Assembly: GCF_000419585.1 (NCBI RefSeq) | Contig: NZ_ATTH01000001.1 | Span: 642,005 to 706,004 of the forward strand | DNA length: 64,000 nt | Direction of reading: 5' to 3' | DNA from: Salisaeta longa DSM 21114 | Lineage (GTDB): Bacteria > Bacteroidota > Rhodothermia > Rhodothermales > Salinibacteraceae | Shown here: piece by piece, positions 8,071-56,184 of the stretch | How the letters are laid out: every line of letters starts with the position of its first letter | How positions within the stretch are numbered: position 1 is the first letter of the stretch | The notes under the pieces: generated by a model | The model's input: only the letters and a program-made list of their open reading frames with translations | Told to the model about the DNA's origin: nothing | Databases searched by the model: none | Made by a program: the position numbers and the translations under genes

Positions 8071-10212
8071 TTACGGGCGGTAAGTCACAGACAGCGCCAC
8101 GGAGCGTCCGGCAAATCCGTACGGGGCCGCGCGGGGGTAGCGCGCCACGTCGTCGCCCTGATACGGAGCGGGCCACGCGGTGGGGTACTGGTCGAGCAGG
8201 TTGTTGACCCGCAAGCCCACGCGTAGCCGGTTGCCCCACATGGAGCGCCGGACGTGCAGGGCCACGCGCGTTTCGGGAGCAAAGCGCACGTCGTGGGCGG
8301 GCCGAACCCCGCGCCAATGAAAGGCCCCGGCATGCTGGACACGTACGCCCCACCGCCAGCGCGCCGTGGCATACGTGAGGGCCGCGCCGGTGAGGGCGCG
8401 GGGCTGCGCATCGACGAGGGCGCGGCGGGTGGCGCGTCCGAATCCGGGCTCGCGCGTGACGGTTTTGAGCACGCGGGGCGCGGTGTACAGCGCGGCCGCT
8501 TGCACGACGAGTTGCCGGTGGGCGCCGAGCGGGCGCCGGTACGCCGCCCGCGCTTGCACGCCGGGGACTGCCAGATCGAACGCATTGTCGAAGTGCCGGA
8601 TGTAGGGCGCCGATTGTGCGGACTGTCGAAACAGCCGGTCGGGCAGGGCCCGCGAGAGGGTAATGCGGTCGCGGATGAGCTGGTAAAAGAGGCGGCCGCT
8701 TAGGCGGAGCGACGACCCGCGGTACTGTCCGCCCAGGGCTGCTAGAAGCGTGGTTTCTTCGCGGAGCCGGTTGGCATCGCCGCTGCGCGCCAGCTGCGCC
8801 GACGCCACATGCGTGACGCGGGCGACGGTGCGCGGCGGTTGTGCAAGGTTTTGGTCGCCGGTTGTGCGGAGCGGGAGGACCCACGTGTCCAGCGTGGTGG
8901 TGGCGTAGCGCTGCATGAGCGTCGGCAGGCGCAAGCCCATGCGGCCGATCAGGAAGAAGCGGAGGCGCGGGGAAGCCGAAAGGCGAAGGCCCGTGAGGCC
9001 GTTGAGCGTAGCGCTGGAGTCGGAGGCAAAGGCAAAGCGGCCGCCAAAATCGAGCGTGAGGCGCGCCGCCAGCGGGATGGCCACGTCGACGGTTGCATCG
9101 ACCCGCGTGCGGCGCCCGTCGGGTGCGAGGGCGGGATCTAGCGGCTGCAGACCGGCCACCTGCGTCCCGGCCGGAGCCCCTGCCTGCTGCGTTAGCGTCT
9201 CGTGACTGACGCGCGCGCCGGCGTGGACGGCCAGCGGCCGCACGAAGCCGACATCTACTGTTCCGCTAAGCGTAGCCCGCAGCGCGCCGAGGCGTGCGAT
9301 GCGCGCCCCGACGCCCACATCGGGCCGCACGGGCGTGCCCAGCGGCAGAGCGGCCGTGGCGGTTGAGCGGAGGTGCACGGTGTGGTGCTGCGCGGCCAGC
9401 GAGAGGTCGTAGCGCCACGTAGGCGTCCATGGCCCACGCACCCCCGCCACCACAGCGCCGCTGTACACGTCGGTCTGGCTCCACGGTTGTACAGCGCGGG
9501 CCTCATCGGGCCTTGGCGTCCAGCGGAAGCGGGGCGTATCGGTTGCTTTCCACCGCAAACCGCCGGTCGCGTAGAGCGTGGGGCCATCGGCCAGCGGCCA
9601 TGCGCCGTCCACCCACGCGCCGGCCTGACGCACGGCACGCTGTCCCCACCAGCCGTGGGATGGCTGCACGGCGCGCTGCGTGACGGCCCGGTGTTGTCCG
9701 TGGGCATAGGCGTTGAGGAAGCCGTCGTTGGGCAGGCGCCAGCCGCGCGCGAGGGCCGCGGCATAGTGGGCGCCGTCGGAAGGAACGCGGGCCGGTCCGG
9801 TGCGCCCGGCGCGCAGCGTTGTGGTAAGCGGGAGCGGCGTGTTGGGCCAGCGGGTGCGCACCACGCCGCCCAGGACGTCAGTGCCGTAGCGCAGTGCGTT
9901 GTGCGGGGCGACGGCGTATGTTGAAGCGCGGGCCAGGGGCGGCGTCCACGACGCATCCAGCGGCTGTGCGCCAAGCCACCGCCCAGGGGCCGTGTGCAAA
10001 AGCAGCGGCGTGGGGAGTCCGCGGCGGCCCATGCGCAGGCGCAGGCTGCGGTCGGGCGCCAGTCCGTAGCGGGAGGGCGCAGCCACGTGCGCGAGGCCGC
10101 GGGGCATGGTGTAGCGGGGCGATAGCACAAGCGTATCGGCGGGTACCGGCTGGGCCGCTACGGGCCCCAATCCCCACACCATACCGAACACAGCAAGCCA
10201 AACGATGCGCAC
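8071..10212 (-). CDS. TonB-dependent receptor-like outer-membrane protein with reduced plug
   Basis: A 713-residue outer-membrane beta-barrel protein. The GTG at 10212 gives a clean signal peptide ending GLGPVAAQ; longer in-frame extensions run into repeat DNA. The early segment [20 protein letters not shown] matches the end of a TonB-receptor plug. The barrel ends with [17 protein letters not shown] and the strand [15 protein letters not shown], the usual receptor terminus. Only about 120 residues precede the barrel, and no carboxypeptidase-like N-terminal domain is visible, so the plug looks shortened. Its ligand is unknown. It is divergent from the levanase operon, which may hint at carbohydrate uptake, but this is only context. 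Confidence 0.72.
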
Positions 10213-10319
10213 GCGCCAGGTTCTCTGATGAATAAACCGCGGGGCCCGCTTCCCCCTGCGTTGCGCCGTGGGAAATGAGCCTCCCACACGTATCGCCTTT
10301 CGCACCTCGGAGTTGCAAC

Positions 10320-10700
10320 GGGGCCGCTTGGTCATCCTGGAAGGGAGGGCGCCACAGGTCATTCCGTAGGGGAAATCCCGGCAGTGAGGCAATTTACTGA
10401 GCGTGTTTTGCTTGTACACGGAGATCGCATCGTAGATATAACCTTCGGCCCCACCAGTGGCATGACCTCCGGCCCCCGCGTCGCCTTCGGCTCCTCGCGA
10501 TGACAAGAGAAGGGGCTGCTATTATGGTGTGTTGGGCGTGCAGTTGGGCAAACCAACCCGATTGGCCATTTGAACCATTTGGTGTTCATTTTCTCATCAA
10601 CCAATGATGTCATTGCGAGCGAACATAGTGAGCGCGGCAATCTCCACAACCGGGCAATCTCCACAACCGGGCAAACGCCACAAACAGACGATCCCGGCCG
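10320..10700. repeat. Intergenic modular repeat cluster A
   Basis: The 641-bp gap between the receptor and levanase starts is mostly repeat. It has GGTCAT-containing modules near 10333 and 10362, CTTCGGCCCC and ATGACCTCCGGCCCC blocks near 10444 and 10464, the block CTCGCGATGACAAG near 10494, GTTGGGCGTGCAGTTGG near 10532, and its inverted partner GTCATTGCGAGCGAAC near 10606. CAATCTCCACAACCGGG is duplicated in tandem at 10638-10671. The same modules recur near 38350-38550 and 51040-51440. No gene is supported here. Confidence 0.75.
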
Positions 10701-10853
10701 GCACGCCCTTCAGGGGCCACCACGTAAGGCTGTGATGGTGCCGTGGAAGCAGGCACCACGCGATTGCGCGCCGGGGGATGCATTCTTGATGACTCGTTTG
10801 TACGTTATCCCCCGATGTGCTCTGGTTCTGCCCGTCAGATTCTGCGATCTTCC

Positions 10854-12413
10854 ATGCGTTTGCCCTCACTTTCTCCCCTCGGTGTGCTCGCTGCGCTTGT
10901 TGTGCTCCTGGCCGCGCCTGCAGCCGCACAGCGCATCACGTACCGGCCCACGTACGTGGAGCCGCAGCGCCCGCAGTACCACTTCACGCCGGCCATCAAC
11001 TGGATGAATGACCCGAACGGGCTTGTGTACTACAACGGGGAATACCATCTTTTCTACCAGTACAATCCGTACGGCATCCAGTGGGGACACATGAGCTGGG
11101 GCCACGCCGTGAGTACGGATCTGGTGCATTGGACGCACCTGCCGGTGGCCATCCCCGAGCAGAACGGCGTCATGGCGTTTAGCGGAAGTGCGGTGGTGGA
11201 TCATCAAAACACGAGCGGATTCGGCACAACAGAACATCCGCCGATGGTGGCCATCTACACCGGCCATCAGCCCACGAAGCAGGCGCAGTACCTGGCCTAC
11301 AGCACCGACCGCGGCCGCACGTGGACGACCTACGAAGGCAACCCGGTGCTCGACATCGGGCGAAAGAATTTCCGTGATCCCAACGTCTTCTGGTATGCGC
11401 CCGAGCAGAAGTGGGTCATGCTTGTGGCGCTGCCGACGGAGTACAAGGTGCAGTTCTACGAATCGAAGAATTTGAAGGACTGGACCCTCATGAGCACCTT
11501 CGGGCCGCAGGGCGGCACGGGGGGCATCTGGGAATGCCCGGATCTCTTTCGGCTGCCGGTGGAAGGAACCAACGAAACGCGGTGGGTGCTGGAGGTAGAC
11601 ATGAATCCCGGCGCGCTGCACGGCGGCTCGGGCGGGCAGTACTTTGTGGGTTCGTTTGATGGCACGACGTTCACGCGGCTGCCCACGGCCGACACGAGCA
11701 CCGTCAACTGGGTCGACTATGGGAAGGATTTTTACGCGGCCATCGACTGGGCCAACCTGCCGGATGCGCAAAACCGGCACGTGTGGATCGGCTGGATGAA
11801 CAATTGGCAGTACGGCGAGCAGATTCCCACGCACCCGTGGCGCAGCGCGCAGAGCATCCCGCGGCGGCTCGCGCTGCGTCGCACCGATGACGGCTTTCGG
11901 CTCGTGCAGTATCCGGTGCAGGAGCTGCAGCAGCTGCGCGACATCCACCGGCACCTCACCGACCTTCCGGTGCCCGCGGGCACGCACAGCCTGCGCGATC
12001 ACGGCATCAGCGGGCGTGCGCTCGAAATTGTAGCAACCATCGACGTAGGCACGGCCGAAGAGGTGGGGCTGAAGGTGCGCCGCGGCGGCACCGAAGAGAC
12101 CCTGGTGGGCGTGGATGTGCGCGGCGAGCAGGTGTTTGTGGATCGGTCGCGCTCGGGCGTCACCGACTTCAGCGCGCACTTTGCCGGCCGCCACGAGGGA
12201 CCGCTGCCCATCACCGACGGCCGCGTCACCCTGCGCGTGTTCGTGGACTGGTCATCGGTAGAGGTGTTTGCCGACGAGGGCTACACCGTCATCACCGATC
12301 GCATCTTTCCGCAACCGCAACACCAGGGCGTGGCCGTGTACGCCGAGGGCGGCGACGCGCGCATCGTGTCAATGGATGTGTGGACGCTACGTTCGGCCTG
12401 GGCTGTTCGCTGA
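10854..12413 (+). CDS. Secreted levanase/inulinase-type fructan hydrolase (GH32)
   Basis: Glycoside hydrolase family 32 enzyme releasing fructose from fructan or sucrose-type substrates. The ATG at 10854 gives a signal peptide ending LLAAPAAAQ. All three GH32 catalytic signatures are present: NWMNDPNG (nucleophile Asp about 53), FRDPN (about 173-177) and WECPD (acid/base Glu about 227). The C-terminal beta-sandwich includes LRVFVDWSSVEVFADEG. The length of 519 residues fits exo-acting levanases. The fructokinase starts 19 bp after its stop and a sugar porter follows, so the three genes form a fructan operon. Whether levan, inulin or sucrose is preferred cannot be told. Confidence 0.93.
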   Translation: MRLPSLSPLGVLAALVVLLAAPAAAQRITYRPTYVEPQRPQYHFTPAINWMNDPNGLVYYNGEYHLFYQYNPYGIQWGHMSWGHAVSTDLVHWTHLPVAIPEQNGVMAFSGSAVVDHQNTSGFGTTEHPPMVAIYTGHQPTKQAQYLAYSTDRGRTWTTYEGNPVLDIGRKNFRDPNVFWYAPEQKWVMLVALPTEYKVQFYESKNLKDWTLMSTFGPQGGTGGIWECPDLFRLPVEGTNETRWVLEVDMNPGALHGGSGGQYFVGSFDGTTFTRLPTADTSTVNWVDYGKDFYAAIDWANLPDAQNRHVWIGWMNNWQYGEQIPTHPWRSAQSIPRRLALRRTDDGFRLVQYPVQELQQLRDIHRHLTDLPVPAGTHSLRDHGISGRALEIVATIDVGTAEEVGLKVRRGGTEETLVGVDVRGEQVFVDRSRSGVTDFSAHFAGRHEGPLPITDGRVTLRVFVDWSSVEVFADEGYTVITDRIFPQPQHQGVAVYAEGGDARIVSMDVWTLRSAWAVR

Positions 12414-12432
12414 CAATCGGTTCAACAAGACC

Positions 12433-13347
12433 ATGGCTATGTCAACGTCTGTGCTGTGCGTAGGGGAACTGTTGTGGGACGCGCTGCCGCGCGGCCTCTT
12501 TCTGGGCGGCGCGCCCTTCAACGTCGCGTGTCATGTGCATCAGCTGGGAACGAGCGCGCGCATCGCAAGCCGCGTGGGCGACGACGTGCTGGGGCACGAG
12601 GCGCTGCGGCGTGTGCGTGCGCGGGGGATGTCCGATGACTGCGTGCAGGTGGACGCCGCGCATCCCACCGGGTTTGTGGAGGTGGCGCTCGATGGCGGCG
12701 GCACGCCCGCGTACACGATCCGGGCCCCGGCGGCGTGGGACGTTATCGCGTCGTCGGAAGCGCTTACCGCTGCGGCGCGCGACGCCTCGGCGCTGGTGTT
12801 TGGGAGCCTGGCGCAACGCCACGACACCTCGCGGGCGACGATACGGGGGCTGTGGGCTACGGGCGCCCCGCTGGTGTTCGATGTGAACCTGCGCCCGCCG
12901 CACGTGGAGCGCGCGCACATCGAGGCGTCGTTGCACGCGGCAGCCATCGCCAAGATGAACGACGAGGAGCTCGCCCAGATGCAGGCGTGGTTCGGACTGC
13001 CGTCGGGCGACCGCGCGGCCATGCAGGCCCTCGCCGACCGCTTCCACCTGTCGATGGTATGCGTCACGCGGGGCGCGCACGGGGCGATGCTGTGGCACGA
13101 GGGCCGGTGGACGACGCATCCGGGGTATCGGGTGTCCGTCGCCGATACCGTAGGCGCGGGCGACGCTTTTCTGGCGGGCCTGCTCGTGGCGTACCTGCAC
13201 GACCGCTCCGATGCCGATCTGCTCGACCACGCGGCGCGCCTGGGGGCCTACGTGGCCTCGCAGCAAGGCGCCACGCCCCCGTACGACGGGTTTGCATCGC
13301 TGCCGGCGCTCACGCGCAACCCCGCGCCTGACGAATCGGCCGTTTAA
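12433..13347 (+). CDS. PfkB-family fructokinase
   Basis: ATP-dependent sugar kinase, most likely phosphorylating fructose released by the upstream levanase. The 304-residue chain begins VLCVGELLWDALP and has the PfkB N-terminal glycine motif FLGGAPFNVACHVHQLG. The C-terminal signature DTVGAGDAFLAGLLVAYL contains the catalytic Asp and the anion hole. The segment GELLWDALPRGLFLGGAPFN is typical of fructokinases rather than ribokinases. Start ATG at 12433. It lies between the levanase and the MFS porter. Confidence 0.9.
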   Translation: MAMSTSVLCVGELLWDALPRGLFLGGAPFNVACHVHQLGTSARIASRVGDDVLGHEALRRVRARGMSDDCVQVDAAHPTGFVEVALDGGGTPAYTIRAPAAWDVIASSEALTAAARDASALVFGSLAQRHDTSRATIRGLWATGAPLVFDVNLRPPHVERAHIEASLHAAAIAKMNDEELAQMQAWFGLPSGDRAAMQALADRFHLSMVCVTRGAHGAMLWHEGRWTTHPGYRVSVADTVGAGDAFLAGLLVAYLHDRSDADLLDHAARLGAYVASQQGATPPYDGFASLPALTRNPAPDESAV

Positions 13348-28747: not shown

Positions 28748-29569
28748 ATGAAACTGTGGGAGCAACTTCGGGACTGGGTGCTGCTCTTTGGGCTCCTCTT
28801 GGCGGCGCTGCTGCTCATGATTGGCCAAAACCAGCCGTTGGTGCGCGGGCTGCGCGCCGAGTTGCTGAGTGCTACGGCGCGGGTGGAGCACGGATTTGCC
28901 TGGATGGGCCGCTACTTCCAGGCGCTGCAACAGAACGAAGCGCTGCGTCGCGAAAACATCCGGCTCTCTAGCCTCGTGGCCCGCACGCGTGCCGTGCGCC
29001 AGCAAAACCGCGAGCTCACGCGCCTGCTGAACCTGCGCGATACGCTCGAGGTGCCGCTGGTGCCGGCGCGCATCGTATCGAAAGACCTGACCCGGCAGCG
29101 CAACTACTTCACGATCAATGTGGGCCGCGCGGATAGCATTGCCGTGGGCATGCCGGTGGTGAACAGCGATGGCATCTTGGGGACGGTGGTTCTGGTGAGC
29201 GCGCACTACGCCCGCGTCATGTCGTACCTCAACACCGATTTCCGCGTGCCTGCGGTGATCCAGCCGCTGCAGGCCGAAGGCATCGTGCGGTGGGACGGCG
29301 AACAACTCAACCGGCTGACCCTGCAGCACATCGTAAAAACCGAGCCGGTGCGTCCGGGGCAACCGGTCGTTACCGATGGACTGAGCGGCGTCTTTCCGGC
29401 GGGCTACCCGGTGGGAACCGTCGACTCGGTCGCGGTGCGCCCGGGCCGCAACGCGTTGCGCATTTACCTGCGGCCGGCTGCGCCGCTCTACAAAACCGGG
29501 TTTGCGGTGGTGCTGCGCACGCAGCCCGCGCCGGAGCGAACGGCGCTGGAGCAGCGCACCCCAACGTAA
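28748..29569 (+). CDS. mreC: Rod-shape-determining protein MreC
   Basis: Single-pass inner-membrane protein linking MreB to peptidoglycan synthases. The 273 residues show a membrane helix (WVLLFGLLLAALLLMIGQ, about 10-27), a coiled coil (about 60-100, LQQNEALRRENIRLSSLVAR) and a periplasmic two-barrel region with NVGRADSIAVGMPVVNSDGI and GLSGVFPAGYPVGTV, both family signatures. It follows mreB. mreD is not next to it; a carboxypeptidase gene follows instead. Confidence 0.95.
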   Translation: MKLWEQLRDWVLLFGLLLAALLLMIGQNQPLVRGLRAELLSATARVEHGFAWMGRYFQALQQNEALRRENIRLSSLVARTRAVRQQNRELTRLLNLRDTLEVPLVPARIVSKDLTRQRNYFTINVGRADSIAVGMPVVNSDGILGTVVLVSAHYARVMSYLNTDFRVPAVIQPLQAEGIVRWDGEQLNRLTLQHIVKTEPVRPGQPVVTDGLSGVFPAGYPVGTVDSVAVRPGRNALRIYLRPAAPLYKTGFAVVLRTQPAPERTALEQRTPT

Positions 29570-31144: not shown

Positions 31145-31190
31145 ATAATATAGCATTCCCTCGAGCTGCCGCAACCCAACCGTTTCCTGC

Positions 31191-53229: not shown

Positions 53230-53400
53230 TTCGGGCAGGGCGGCACGGGTAGCGCGCGGGCGGTCGGGGGAGCCGATGGCCCGCGTGTACCGTTTCTGCT
53301 CTATCCTCTAGCGAGCTGCGGAAAGCCCGGAATTGTCGTTGCATCGAGGATTTCACAGAAGCAGTACAGCACAACCCACAAGAGGACGGGGTTGAAAACC

Positions 53401-54156
53401 TCAGGTTACTGAGGAAGTGGCCACATGACCAGCCAATCCGCTGACCAGGCGCTTAAGGCCGGTCGGTGGACCCAACTCGGTGTAGATGCCACTCGGCCCT
53501 TCTTCTTTAGACGATAGGAGAAGCGTGCCGGCATCATACAGGCGTTCCTGCATAAGATGCCGAAGCATAACATCATAGCGCTTAGCATAGCTTGCATTCT
53601 CGAACACTTCGAGGGTATCAAAGTGTTCGGAACGAATCGATACCGGTCGGCGCGAACCCTCATCATCCTCCAGTAGCATGATGTATCCCAAAAACGGCCG
53701 CGGAATGTCTCCGAATGTGCCCTCGCGGTATGCTACCCATAAATCAGAGGCCATACCGATTGCCTCTTCGCATCGATTGTTAAAGTTGTTGCCAAAAGAG
53801 GGGCCAATCTGTGATTTGAATTCCAGGGCGGCCACCAGCTGGTTCTTGTGGATTACCAGGAAATCCCAGTCTTTTACGGGTCGATAGAATCCAGGCAAGG
53901 TCACATGACGATGGGCCGTCTCAGTCTCAGCGCCGCTGTAAATAGCCCCTGGGCCAAGGCCATTGGCTATTACGATCTGCTTGATCAGGCCAATAAAGCC
54001 ATCCATGTTCTTGCCAGCAGTGACAGCCGCACGGTTGCCCCGATCGGAAACCGTTCTTCGTTCCTCCTGCGCTGCACGCGCCTTTCCACGCGTCTCCCAG
54101 AAAAGACGGACGGCTTCCTCCGCACGAGCTTCGTAATTAGCTAGGTCCAATGCCAT
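53401..54156 (-). CDS. PaeR7I/XhoI-type type II restriction endonuclease
   Basis: A 251-residue endonuclease of the PaeR7I family, whose members cut CTCGAG. PVKDWDFLVIHKNQLVAALE and FKSQIGPSFGNNFNNRCEEA carry the PD-(D/E)XK site (Asp about 98, Glu about 112, Lys about 114) and the family-specific SFGNNFNNR segment. EEAIGMASDLWVAYREG follows the same family. It lies 69 bp downstream of a matching adenine methylase on the same strand. GC content is lower than its neighbours. CTCGAG is rare across the window, in keeping with this specificity. Confidence 0.88.
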   Translation of the reverse strand: MALDLANYEARAEEAVRLFWETRGKARAAQEERRTVSDRGNRAAVTAGKNMDGFIGLIKQIVIANGLGPGAIYSGAETETAHRHVTLPGFYRPVKDWDFLVIHKNQLVAALEFKSQIGPSFGNNFNNRCEEAIGMASDLWVAYREGTFGDIPRPFLGYIMLLEDDEGSRRPVSIRSEHFDTLEVFENASYAKRYDVMLRHLMQERLYDAGTLLLSSKEEGPSGIYTELGPPTGLKRLVSGLAGHVATSSVT

Positions 54157-54225
54157 AAGCGATGTAATTTTCAGACGTGCTATAAAGTGCCGTGCCAGTC
54201 ATTCAGAAATAGCCAAGACAATCGA

Positions 54226-55908
54226 CTACGACTTTACGTCGCCCACTGCAGCACGAATAACCGCTGCCTCGCGATCAGAGAGTCCAAATAAGTCAAACGT
54301 GACCGTATCGCAGGCCGATTGATCTTGCCGAGCGGCCTCACGCAGACGGTCACGCATCGTACGCGACACGTCGTCCCAACGGGGCACGCGAATGCGGCGC
54401 AGATACTGGGCCTGAAAACGCAAGTAATTGCCCCGCATCCAGACCGAATAGATGGCAATGAAGAACTCGGCAATCGTCGATCGAAGCACAGCTTGCAGTG
54501 CCTGCAGATCCCAGTCGTCCGAGACCACATAATAGACATTGTGATGCGGATAGAGAGAGCCCGGATCATAGGCCACAGCGGCTTCTCCCTTGATGTCGGG
54601 GATGAGCAGCTTGGGTCGCTTCAGAAGTGCTGTGTGGATCTTGTCAATCGTACGATACCATTGGTCGGGATATTTTCGGGCGATGTAGCGATTACGAATC
54701 CGCTCCTCGTGCTTCTTGAGATATACCGCCAACTTCGGATACTCGGAAAGGTCTACCAGGCTGCCATCTGTGTTGAATAAGTTGAGGACATGATAGCCCC
54801 CCCAATCAAGCTTCCCCTCTTGGATGTCAGCAGTCTTCACCACGGGCAGTTGACGGGACCCTTCCACGGGTAGTGATTGGCGAACAAAAATATCATCTGC
54901 TCCGGTGGCAACCCCTATCCCAACCTTGCATCCGATGTCTTCAATTGTCGGAAACCGCTCCTCGATTCCACGCAGAATCGCCACCTCCTCTGGACGATCC
55001 AACAGCCACGGTTGGTCGTCATCGGTCACACGAGGAAGGACGTGGACCCGGGCGTTCTTTTTTTGCTGACGCAACGGTGCCACCAAAGCGGTCAAGTCAT
55101 CGATCGCGGGGCGGCGAACAATGCTTGTTGATGCAGAGGACGACCGCGCCCGTTCGATCAGGAAAATGCTGGGATAGGCTGTGGCTTTTTGTGCAAAGGC
55201 CGCGGTGCCCGTCATATCCACAAAGGCTGAGACATGAAATGCTCGGTCGATGCGTCGGCGCAGGCCTTTGCCATATGCGTTTTTGACCCATCGATCCGGG
55301 CAGATGTAAGCAAGCTGGCCATCGGCGCTTAACAGGTCTAGCCCGCGTTCAATAAATGGGACATAGAGGTCCGCCCGGCCCTGAATGCAATCGTAGCGCT
55401 GCTTGTACGCCGCCGTCAGGACGTCTGGGATCTGCTCATGGCGAATGTAGGGCGGATTGCCGACCACGTGGGTAAAAGGCCCTTCGATATCGGCAAGCAA
55501 GAAGTCGTCTTGAGTCACCCAAGCGTCAAGCAGATGGTCTATGCCCGCCGGATCGATGTCCGCATTTGAAAGCAAGTCGTGAAGACGTTTGCGCGTGCGC
55601 CGGTACGACGCATCGTTCAGCTCAACTGCACGAATTGCGCCTTCAATCTGCTCAACGGCAGGTTGTCCCGAGGTGAGGAGGCGGCTCACAGCCTCGCACA
55701 CGAACGCACCATGGCCACACGACGGATCCAGCAGCCGAAACGAGCACAGATTTTGGTCGGTGGTGTATCCGGCCAAGTCCAAAATGAACCGTACCACTTC
55801 GGGGCGCGTCAAAATCGCACCTCGGTCTTCATTACTCGCTGTAGCCAAGTCATTGACCGCCTGCTGGACGATGCGCGGTCGTTTCAAGCCGAGGCGTGCC
55901 TGAGCCAT
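54226..55908 (-). CDS. N6-adenine DNA methyltransferase of the PaeR7I/XhoI-type system
   Basis: A 560-residue gamma-type adenine methylase. SAM-binding motif I is LLDPSCGHGAFVCEAV (about 59-74). The catalytic motif NPPYIRHEQI lies at about 151-160, with GRADLYVPFIERGLDLLSAD following. The C-terminal half is the target-recognition region (KIHTALLKRPKLLIPDIKGE, RGNYLRFQAQYLRRI), as in TaqI- and Eco57I-like enzymes. It is upstream of the endonuclease, so protection is made first. Recognition of CTCGAG is inferred from the partner. Its lower GC content suggests transfer. Start ATG 55908. Confidence 0.88.
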   Translation of the reverse strand: MAQARLGLKRPRIVQQAVNDLATASNEDRGAILTRPEVVRFILDLAGYTTDQNLCSFRLLDPSCGHGAFVCEAVSRLLTSGQPAVEQIEGAIRAVELNDASYRRTRKRLHDLLSNADIDPAGIDHLLDAWVTQDDFLLADIEGPFTHVVGNPPYIRHEQIPDVLTAAYKQRYDCIQGRADLYVPFIERGLDLLSADGQLAYICPDRWVKNAYGKGLRRRIDRAFHVSAFVDMTGTAAFAQKATAYPSIFLIERARSSSASTSIVRRPAIDDLTALVAPLRQQKKNARVHVLPRVTDDDQPWLLDRPEEVAILRGIEERFPTIEDIGCKVGIGVATGADDIFVRQSLPVEGSRQLPVVKTADIQEGKLDWGGYHVLNLFNTDGSLVDLSEYPKLAVYLKKHEERIRNRYIARKYPDQWYRTIDKIHTALLKRPKLLIPDIKGEAAVAYDPGSLYPHHNVYYVVSDDWDLQALQAVLRSTIAEFFIAIYSVWMRGNYLRFQAQYLRRIRVPRWDDVSRTMRDRLREAARQDQSACDTVTFDLFGLSDREAAVIRAAVGDVKS

Positions 55909-56184
55909 GCGTTGTCAGATGATTGCTTCCCTAAAGCATTTCACAGTATGCCACATCTTGGATCGTTTTACAAGTACCCACCTCTGATGCGGCTCGGCAA
56001 GGATTGGTGCGATGGCCCTGCAGCCCGCGGCGCCCGCTTGAAAAAGTGATGGCGCGCGCTCTATCTTGACGGCTGTCCGCGCTTGGGGAGGGACCCAGGA
56101 CCGGTTGCGGGGGGCGACGGTATAGCGTACACCCCGTTCACCCTGCCGGCTGCATTTATTCACGTTTAGTTTCACTTCGTACCG

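Follow-up and report, generated by a model that had tools for sequence, protein, structure and literature searches.

The scarcity of the hexamer CTCGAG in Salisaeta longa DSM 21114 is probably a lineage-wide footprint of XhoI-family restriction-modification (R-M) systems that have resided in this lineage repeatedly, with the foreign R-M pair present today as the latest occupant. This scarcity is shared with related genomes, a pattern consistent with CTCGAG-cutting systems having entered and left the lineage over a long time.

The window, i.e. the whole stretch of 64 kb of chromosome that was analysed, harbours two R-M genes on the reverse strand, in the order methyltransferase (MTase) then restriction endonuclease (REase). 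The first gene of the pair encodes a PaeR7I/XhoI-type N6-adenine MTase of 560 amino acids (54226-55908; Pfam Eco57I methylase 8.6e-23, TaqI_C 1.7e-7), which also matches the PADLOC type II MTase model (1.3e-201). The second encodes an REase of 251 amino acids of the XhoI/PaeR7I family (53401-54156; Pfam XhoI PF04555, 1.5e-74), a full-length member covering profile positions 3-190 of 191. The REase is 49.8% identical to annotated paeR7IR over 249 amino acids, and the MTase is 49% identical to annotated paeR7IM, with the NPPY motif and the C-terminal specificity region aligned. The original prediction thus had the gene coordinates right, as well as the membership in a family that cuts CTCGAG. 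REase residues D98, E112 and K114, which follow the PD-ExK pattern, align with PaeR7I, are conserved in essentially all aligned homologues, and are by this pattern the predicted catalytic residues. The isoelectric point of the REase is 5.9, below that of 83 of the 86 relatives compared. A sequence search of solved structures gave no match to the REase, and neither did a search of phage records.

Judged from sequence, the pair is an intact orthodox Type II R-M system of the PaeR7I/XhoI kind, and it is apparently functional. PaeR7I recognises CTCGAG and cuts it as C^TCGAG, and its MTase converts the fifth base to N6-methyladenine (PMC3031569). Homology and site scarcity together suggest that the S. 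longa REase recognises and cuts CTCGAG, and the host MTase is likewise predicted to introduce m6A at this site. Similar to PaeR7I, the relatives of the window pair are spread over many phyla and occur on plasmids. However, the window pair is chromosomal and its specificity is predicted only, and it lacks the DNA-invertase-like gene that is annotated in front of PaeR7I on pRSB105.

The pair sits in a low-GC island (53250-56150; GC about 0.51-0.58 in the composition profile, versus about 0.65 for the host) between an aldehyde dehydrogenase gene and tilS-hpt. The two genes have a GC content of 0.54 and 0.56 and a GC3 of 0.56 and 0.62, versus 0.66-0.68 and 0.84-0.85 in the flanking genes, in agreement with the earlier impression that they were acquired. 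The tilS-hpt genes, to the right of the pair, are kept together in 12 relatives. An aldehyde dehydrogenase gene was not detected next to them in these relatives within the flanks, which reach up to 1.5 kb and comprise only about 350 bases upstream of tilS in genome G002. The pair was absent upstream of tilS in every relative examined, and the XhoI-family genes of relatives are located elsewhere.

CTCGAG occurs three times in the window, at 2887-2892, 29045-29050 and 31160-31165 (forward strand), with no other copies in the 64 kb. The expected number is 17.2 +/- 3.8 from dinucleotide shuffles, 18.9 from a maximum-order Markov model and 21.9 from base composition, and the deficit has a Poisson P(<=3) of 8e-6, or about 5e-4 when corrected for 64 palindromes. 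Both the three positions and the figure of roughly twenty sites from composition given in the original prediction were therefore confirmed. The genome of S. longa (3,399,024 bp) consists of a 3.19 Mb chromosome, which includes the window, and two replicons of 151 and 55 kb, presumably plasmids given their size. The whole genome contains 147 CTCGAG sites, and 380 kb of chromosome outside the window, sampled as 19 evenly spaced stretches of 20 kb, contain 15 against 119.3 expected (P about 2e-33); the scarcity in the window is thus not a local quirk. Both small replicons are depleted as well, with 4 observed against 32.7 expected sites and 0 against 9.7. The genome-wide comparison with a Markov model that had been proposed revealed a strong depletion, with 18 sites against 138 expected (0.13 of expectation) in the 444 kb formed by the stretches and the window. 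With expectations computed on sampled stretches, as for all genomes compared here, samples and genome-wide counts give an observed/expected ratio of 0.13-0.14 for the host. About 87% of the expected CTCGAG sites have been lost from the whole genome.

The deficit is specific to the exact site. In the 444 kb of host sequence, CTCGAG ranks lowest among the 1,977 hexamers that are expected 20 or more times over both strands, and the next lowest word stands at 0.42. Single-letter variants of CTCGAG occur at normal or raised frequency, including CTCGAC (512 observed, 400 expected on both strands), CTCGAA (249 and 195) and CTCGAT (382 and 307), which bears out the statement that TCGAG and CTCGA with other outer bases are common. 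Under a codon-aware null model, in which amino-acid sequence and codon usage were fixed and genes were called with a simple home-made codon model, the called genes contain 15 CTCGAG against about 144 expected. CCTAGG is marginally lower than CTCGAG in the ranking by this model (0.09 vs 0.10). The surviving sites are not marked by low GC, as none of the 18 in the evenly sampled stretches fell below the 10th percentile of the background.

Four CTCGAG sites were found within 3.8 kb at positions 1,629,019-1,632,786 of the host chromosome (positions 9019-12786 of the extracted locus L273). This stretch has a GC content of 0.52-0.55 and contains an open reading frame of 1262 amino acids. The cluster looks like newly arrived DNA in which the purge is yet to come.

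Genes of the XhoI family were present in five of the 27 family genomes and in eight of the 244 class genomes. In a combined protein tree obtained by a quick search, S. longa and genus g5 are joined as sisters (SH-aLRT 99). The observed/expected ratios of relatives come from samples and genome-wide counts, and those from small samples are rough, above all for G026, G025 and G004. The ratio is 0.06-0.10 in G005 and 0.05-0.07 in G006, both of the sister genus, and 0.12-0.16 in G002, where an XhoI gene was not found; G002, G006 and others are incomplete genomes, from whose assemblies such a gene could be missing. It reaches about 0.2-0.45 in the Salinibacter-like genus g8, 0.4-0.57 in genus g9, and 0.44-0.48 in G001, which carries an XhoI gene. 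Other relatives without XhoI genes are also depleted, namely G015 (0.33-0.34), G013 (0.38) and G016 (0.45), and Salinibacter-like relatives lacking the gene stand at 0.3-0.45 overall. Genus g4 of the same family is nearer expectation, at about 0.57-0.9. In the contrast between CTCGAG and CTCGAC, the genomes sampled from families f6 and f13 come out close to parity, as do several from f3, although the all-genome contrast with CTCGAC and GTCGAC is confounded by a general scarcity of palindromes. GAGCTC was dropped as the main yardstick for CTCGAG, as it varies by itself between genomes.

Across the family, carrying an XhoI gene says little about depletion: G001 and G014 carry one and are more weakly depleted, whereas depletion is strong in G002 and G006, where no such gene was found. 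The marker tree does not separate genomes G013 and G014, and only G014 has the gene, yet their CTCGAG densities are equal (730 sites in 3.4 Mb and 783 in 3.6 Mb). Acquisition of an XhoI gene therefore does not quickly lower the CTCGAG count, and the sister genus suggests that loss of a system does not quickly restore it. The original prediction tied the scarcity to the pair in the window. This did not hold, since relatives that lack an intact copy (G006, as well as G005, whose genes are broken) are equally or more depleted, an outcome that the prediction itself had named as counting against it, and the present copy is thus not a sufficient cause. The genome-wide depletion of the exact site, beyond both the Markov and the codon-aware expectation, did support the prediction in part, and the pattern is compatible with the long selection on the host lineage that it invoked, with the reservation that the present pair is not its sole cause. 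In the methylome of Salinibacter ruber M31, only GATANNNNNCTC and CAGCAG were reported (PMC12613981). If G016 is Salinibacter ruber, its ratio would reflect avoidance without CTCGAG methylation today.

Further deficits were observed in other genomes. Genome G176, from another family in the order (loci L205-L208), has one CTCGAG against 12.6 expected and 124 sites in 4.2 Mb; a search for XhoI-family genes in G176 gave no match, though it is equally depleted in CTCGAG. The XhoI-bearing genome G237 (L096, L209-L212) has no ACGCGT, ATCGAT or CCGCGG in 100 kb, and only 10 GTCGAC in 4.4 Mb, with 15 and 8 in its siblings G235 and G236. In G172 (L197-L200), TCCGGA occurs once in 29 kb where 14.8 copies are expected, suggesting that this site is avoided too.

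The XhoI genes of the family split into two lineages in the tree. The window REase forms a lone long branch, so its residence time is uncertain. The other subfamily is represented by G014, G018 and G001, and both of the R-M genes found in G005 of the sister genus match it best, in the order REase then MTase. These two genes are broken. The REase gene is interrupted by a repeat of about 180 bp (locus L091, 10823-11003), and the MTase frame shifts near position 9320 of the same locus. A draft error may account for the single frameshift, but less readily for the inserted repeat. The ends of the repeat look like imperfect inverted repeats (MITE-like), and related copies or pieces were found on several contigs of G006. 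G006 retains the genes that flank the syntenic place; the interval between them measures 2.0 kb versus 4.4 kb in G005, and no recognisable R-M remnant was detected in it. The subfamily of G014, G018 and G001 probably shares its site with the window pair, as its REases belong to the same Pfam family. It differs from the window pair in gene order and in forming a separate clade, with REases 37-45% and MTases about 27% identical.

The present pair could itself be old, if the common ancestor of S. longa and the sister genus carried it and purged its sites, and the sister genus then lost it. Such a history would account for the very strong depletion in both genera, and the long branch and low isoelectric point of the REase may reflect a long stay in a halophile lineage. 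Nonetheless, we regard it as unlikely: PaeR7I as annotated is close in isoelectric point (6.1), the sister genus holds a remnant of the other subfamily, the window genes retain a foreign GC3, and the place upstream of tilS lacks the pair in all relatives examined.

Causes other than an XhoI-family system appear far less probable still. A codon-pair, mutational or structural bias of high-GC genomes would agree with a scarcity that extends over most of the family regardless of the gene. Most of the expected sites are indeed a single Leu-Glu codon pair, CTC-GAG. However, the deficit is found in codon phase 2 (1 of 23 expected) as well as in phase 0 (14 of 120), which places it at the level of DNA and not of one codon pair. 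The pairs CTC-GAC, CTC-GAA and CTG-GAG are in excess, the one-letter neighbours are normal, and neither genus g4 nor the genomes near parity in f6, f13 and f3 show the scarcity to the same degree; such a bias is very improbable. No more credit can be given to avoidance caused by a different enzyme whose site overlaps CTCGAG (CYCGRG, CTYRAG, TCGA or a flank-extended CTCGAG), although the specificity of the window REase is a prediction and further R-M genes exist in the family. CYCGRG and CTYRAG are not depleted as sets, and CTCGGG (376 observed, 393 expected) and CTTGAG (152 and 168) occur about as often as expected. Other NTCGAN words show only a mild to moderate shortage, and the sequences flanking the surviving CTCGAG sites agree with expectation.

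Repeated residence of XhoI-family systems in the lineage remains the preferred explanation. The MTase would methylate CTCGAG at the adenine, and copies left unmethylated would be cut by the free-standing REase. As the two enzymes would act independently, a lapse in methylation would expose sites of the host, leading to a slow purge on chromosome and plasmids. The ancestor of S. longa and the sister genus, and probably much of the family, would have hosted CTCGAG-specific systems repeatedly, and the depth of purging would have been built mainly before, or independently of, the present copy. From this pattern we infer that self-cutting was the selective force, and in which order systems were gained and lost. 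In about half of cases an orthodox Type II system brings about avoidance, with a higher share for long-resident systems, and a site avoided in a genome without the system can be a relic of its loss (Rusinov et al. 2015, PMC4687349). The footprint in S. longa is a new example of this known phenomenon, similar to those traces in that a palindromic Type II site is depleted both in the host and in relatives without the system. It differs in that an older isospecific wreck is visible in the sister genus and that the host carries a different subfamily from that wreck.

Site counts in this family record an R-M history that gene content has lost, as one footprint is common to a live system, the wreck of another subfamily and gene-free relatives. 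A scarce site beside an R-M gene need not be the effect of that gene, which calls for caution. We tentatively suggest, as a possibility that falls well short of the footprint itself in confidence, that avoidance was kept up by the serial replacement of separately descended isospecific XhoI-family systems, with an emptied genome as a safer landing place that favours re-acquisition. If depleted genomes do re-attract isospecific systems, this family makes the idea testable by counting.
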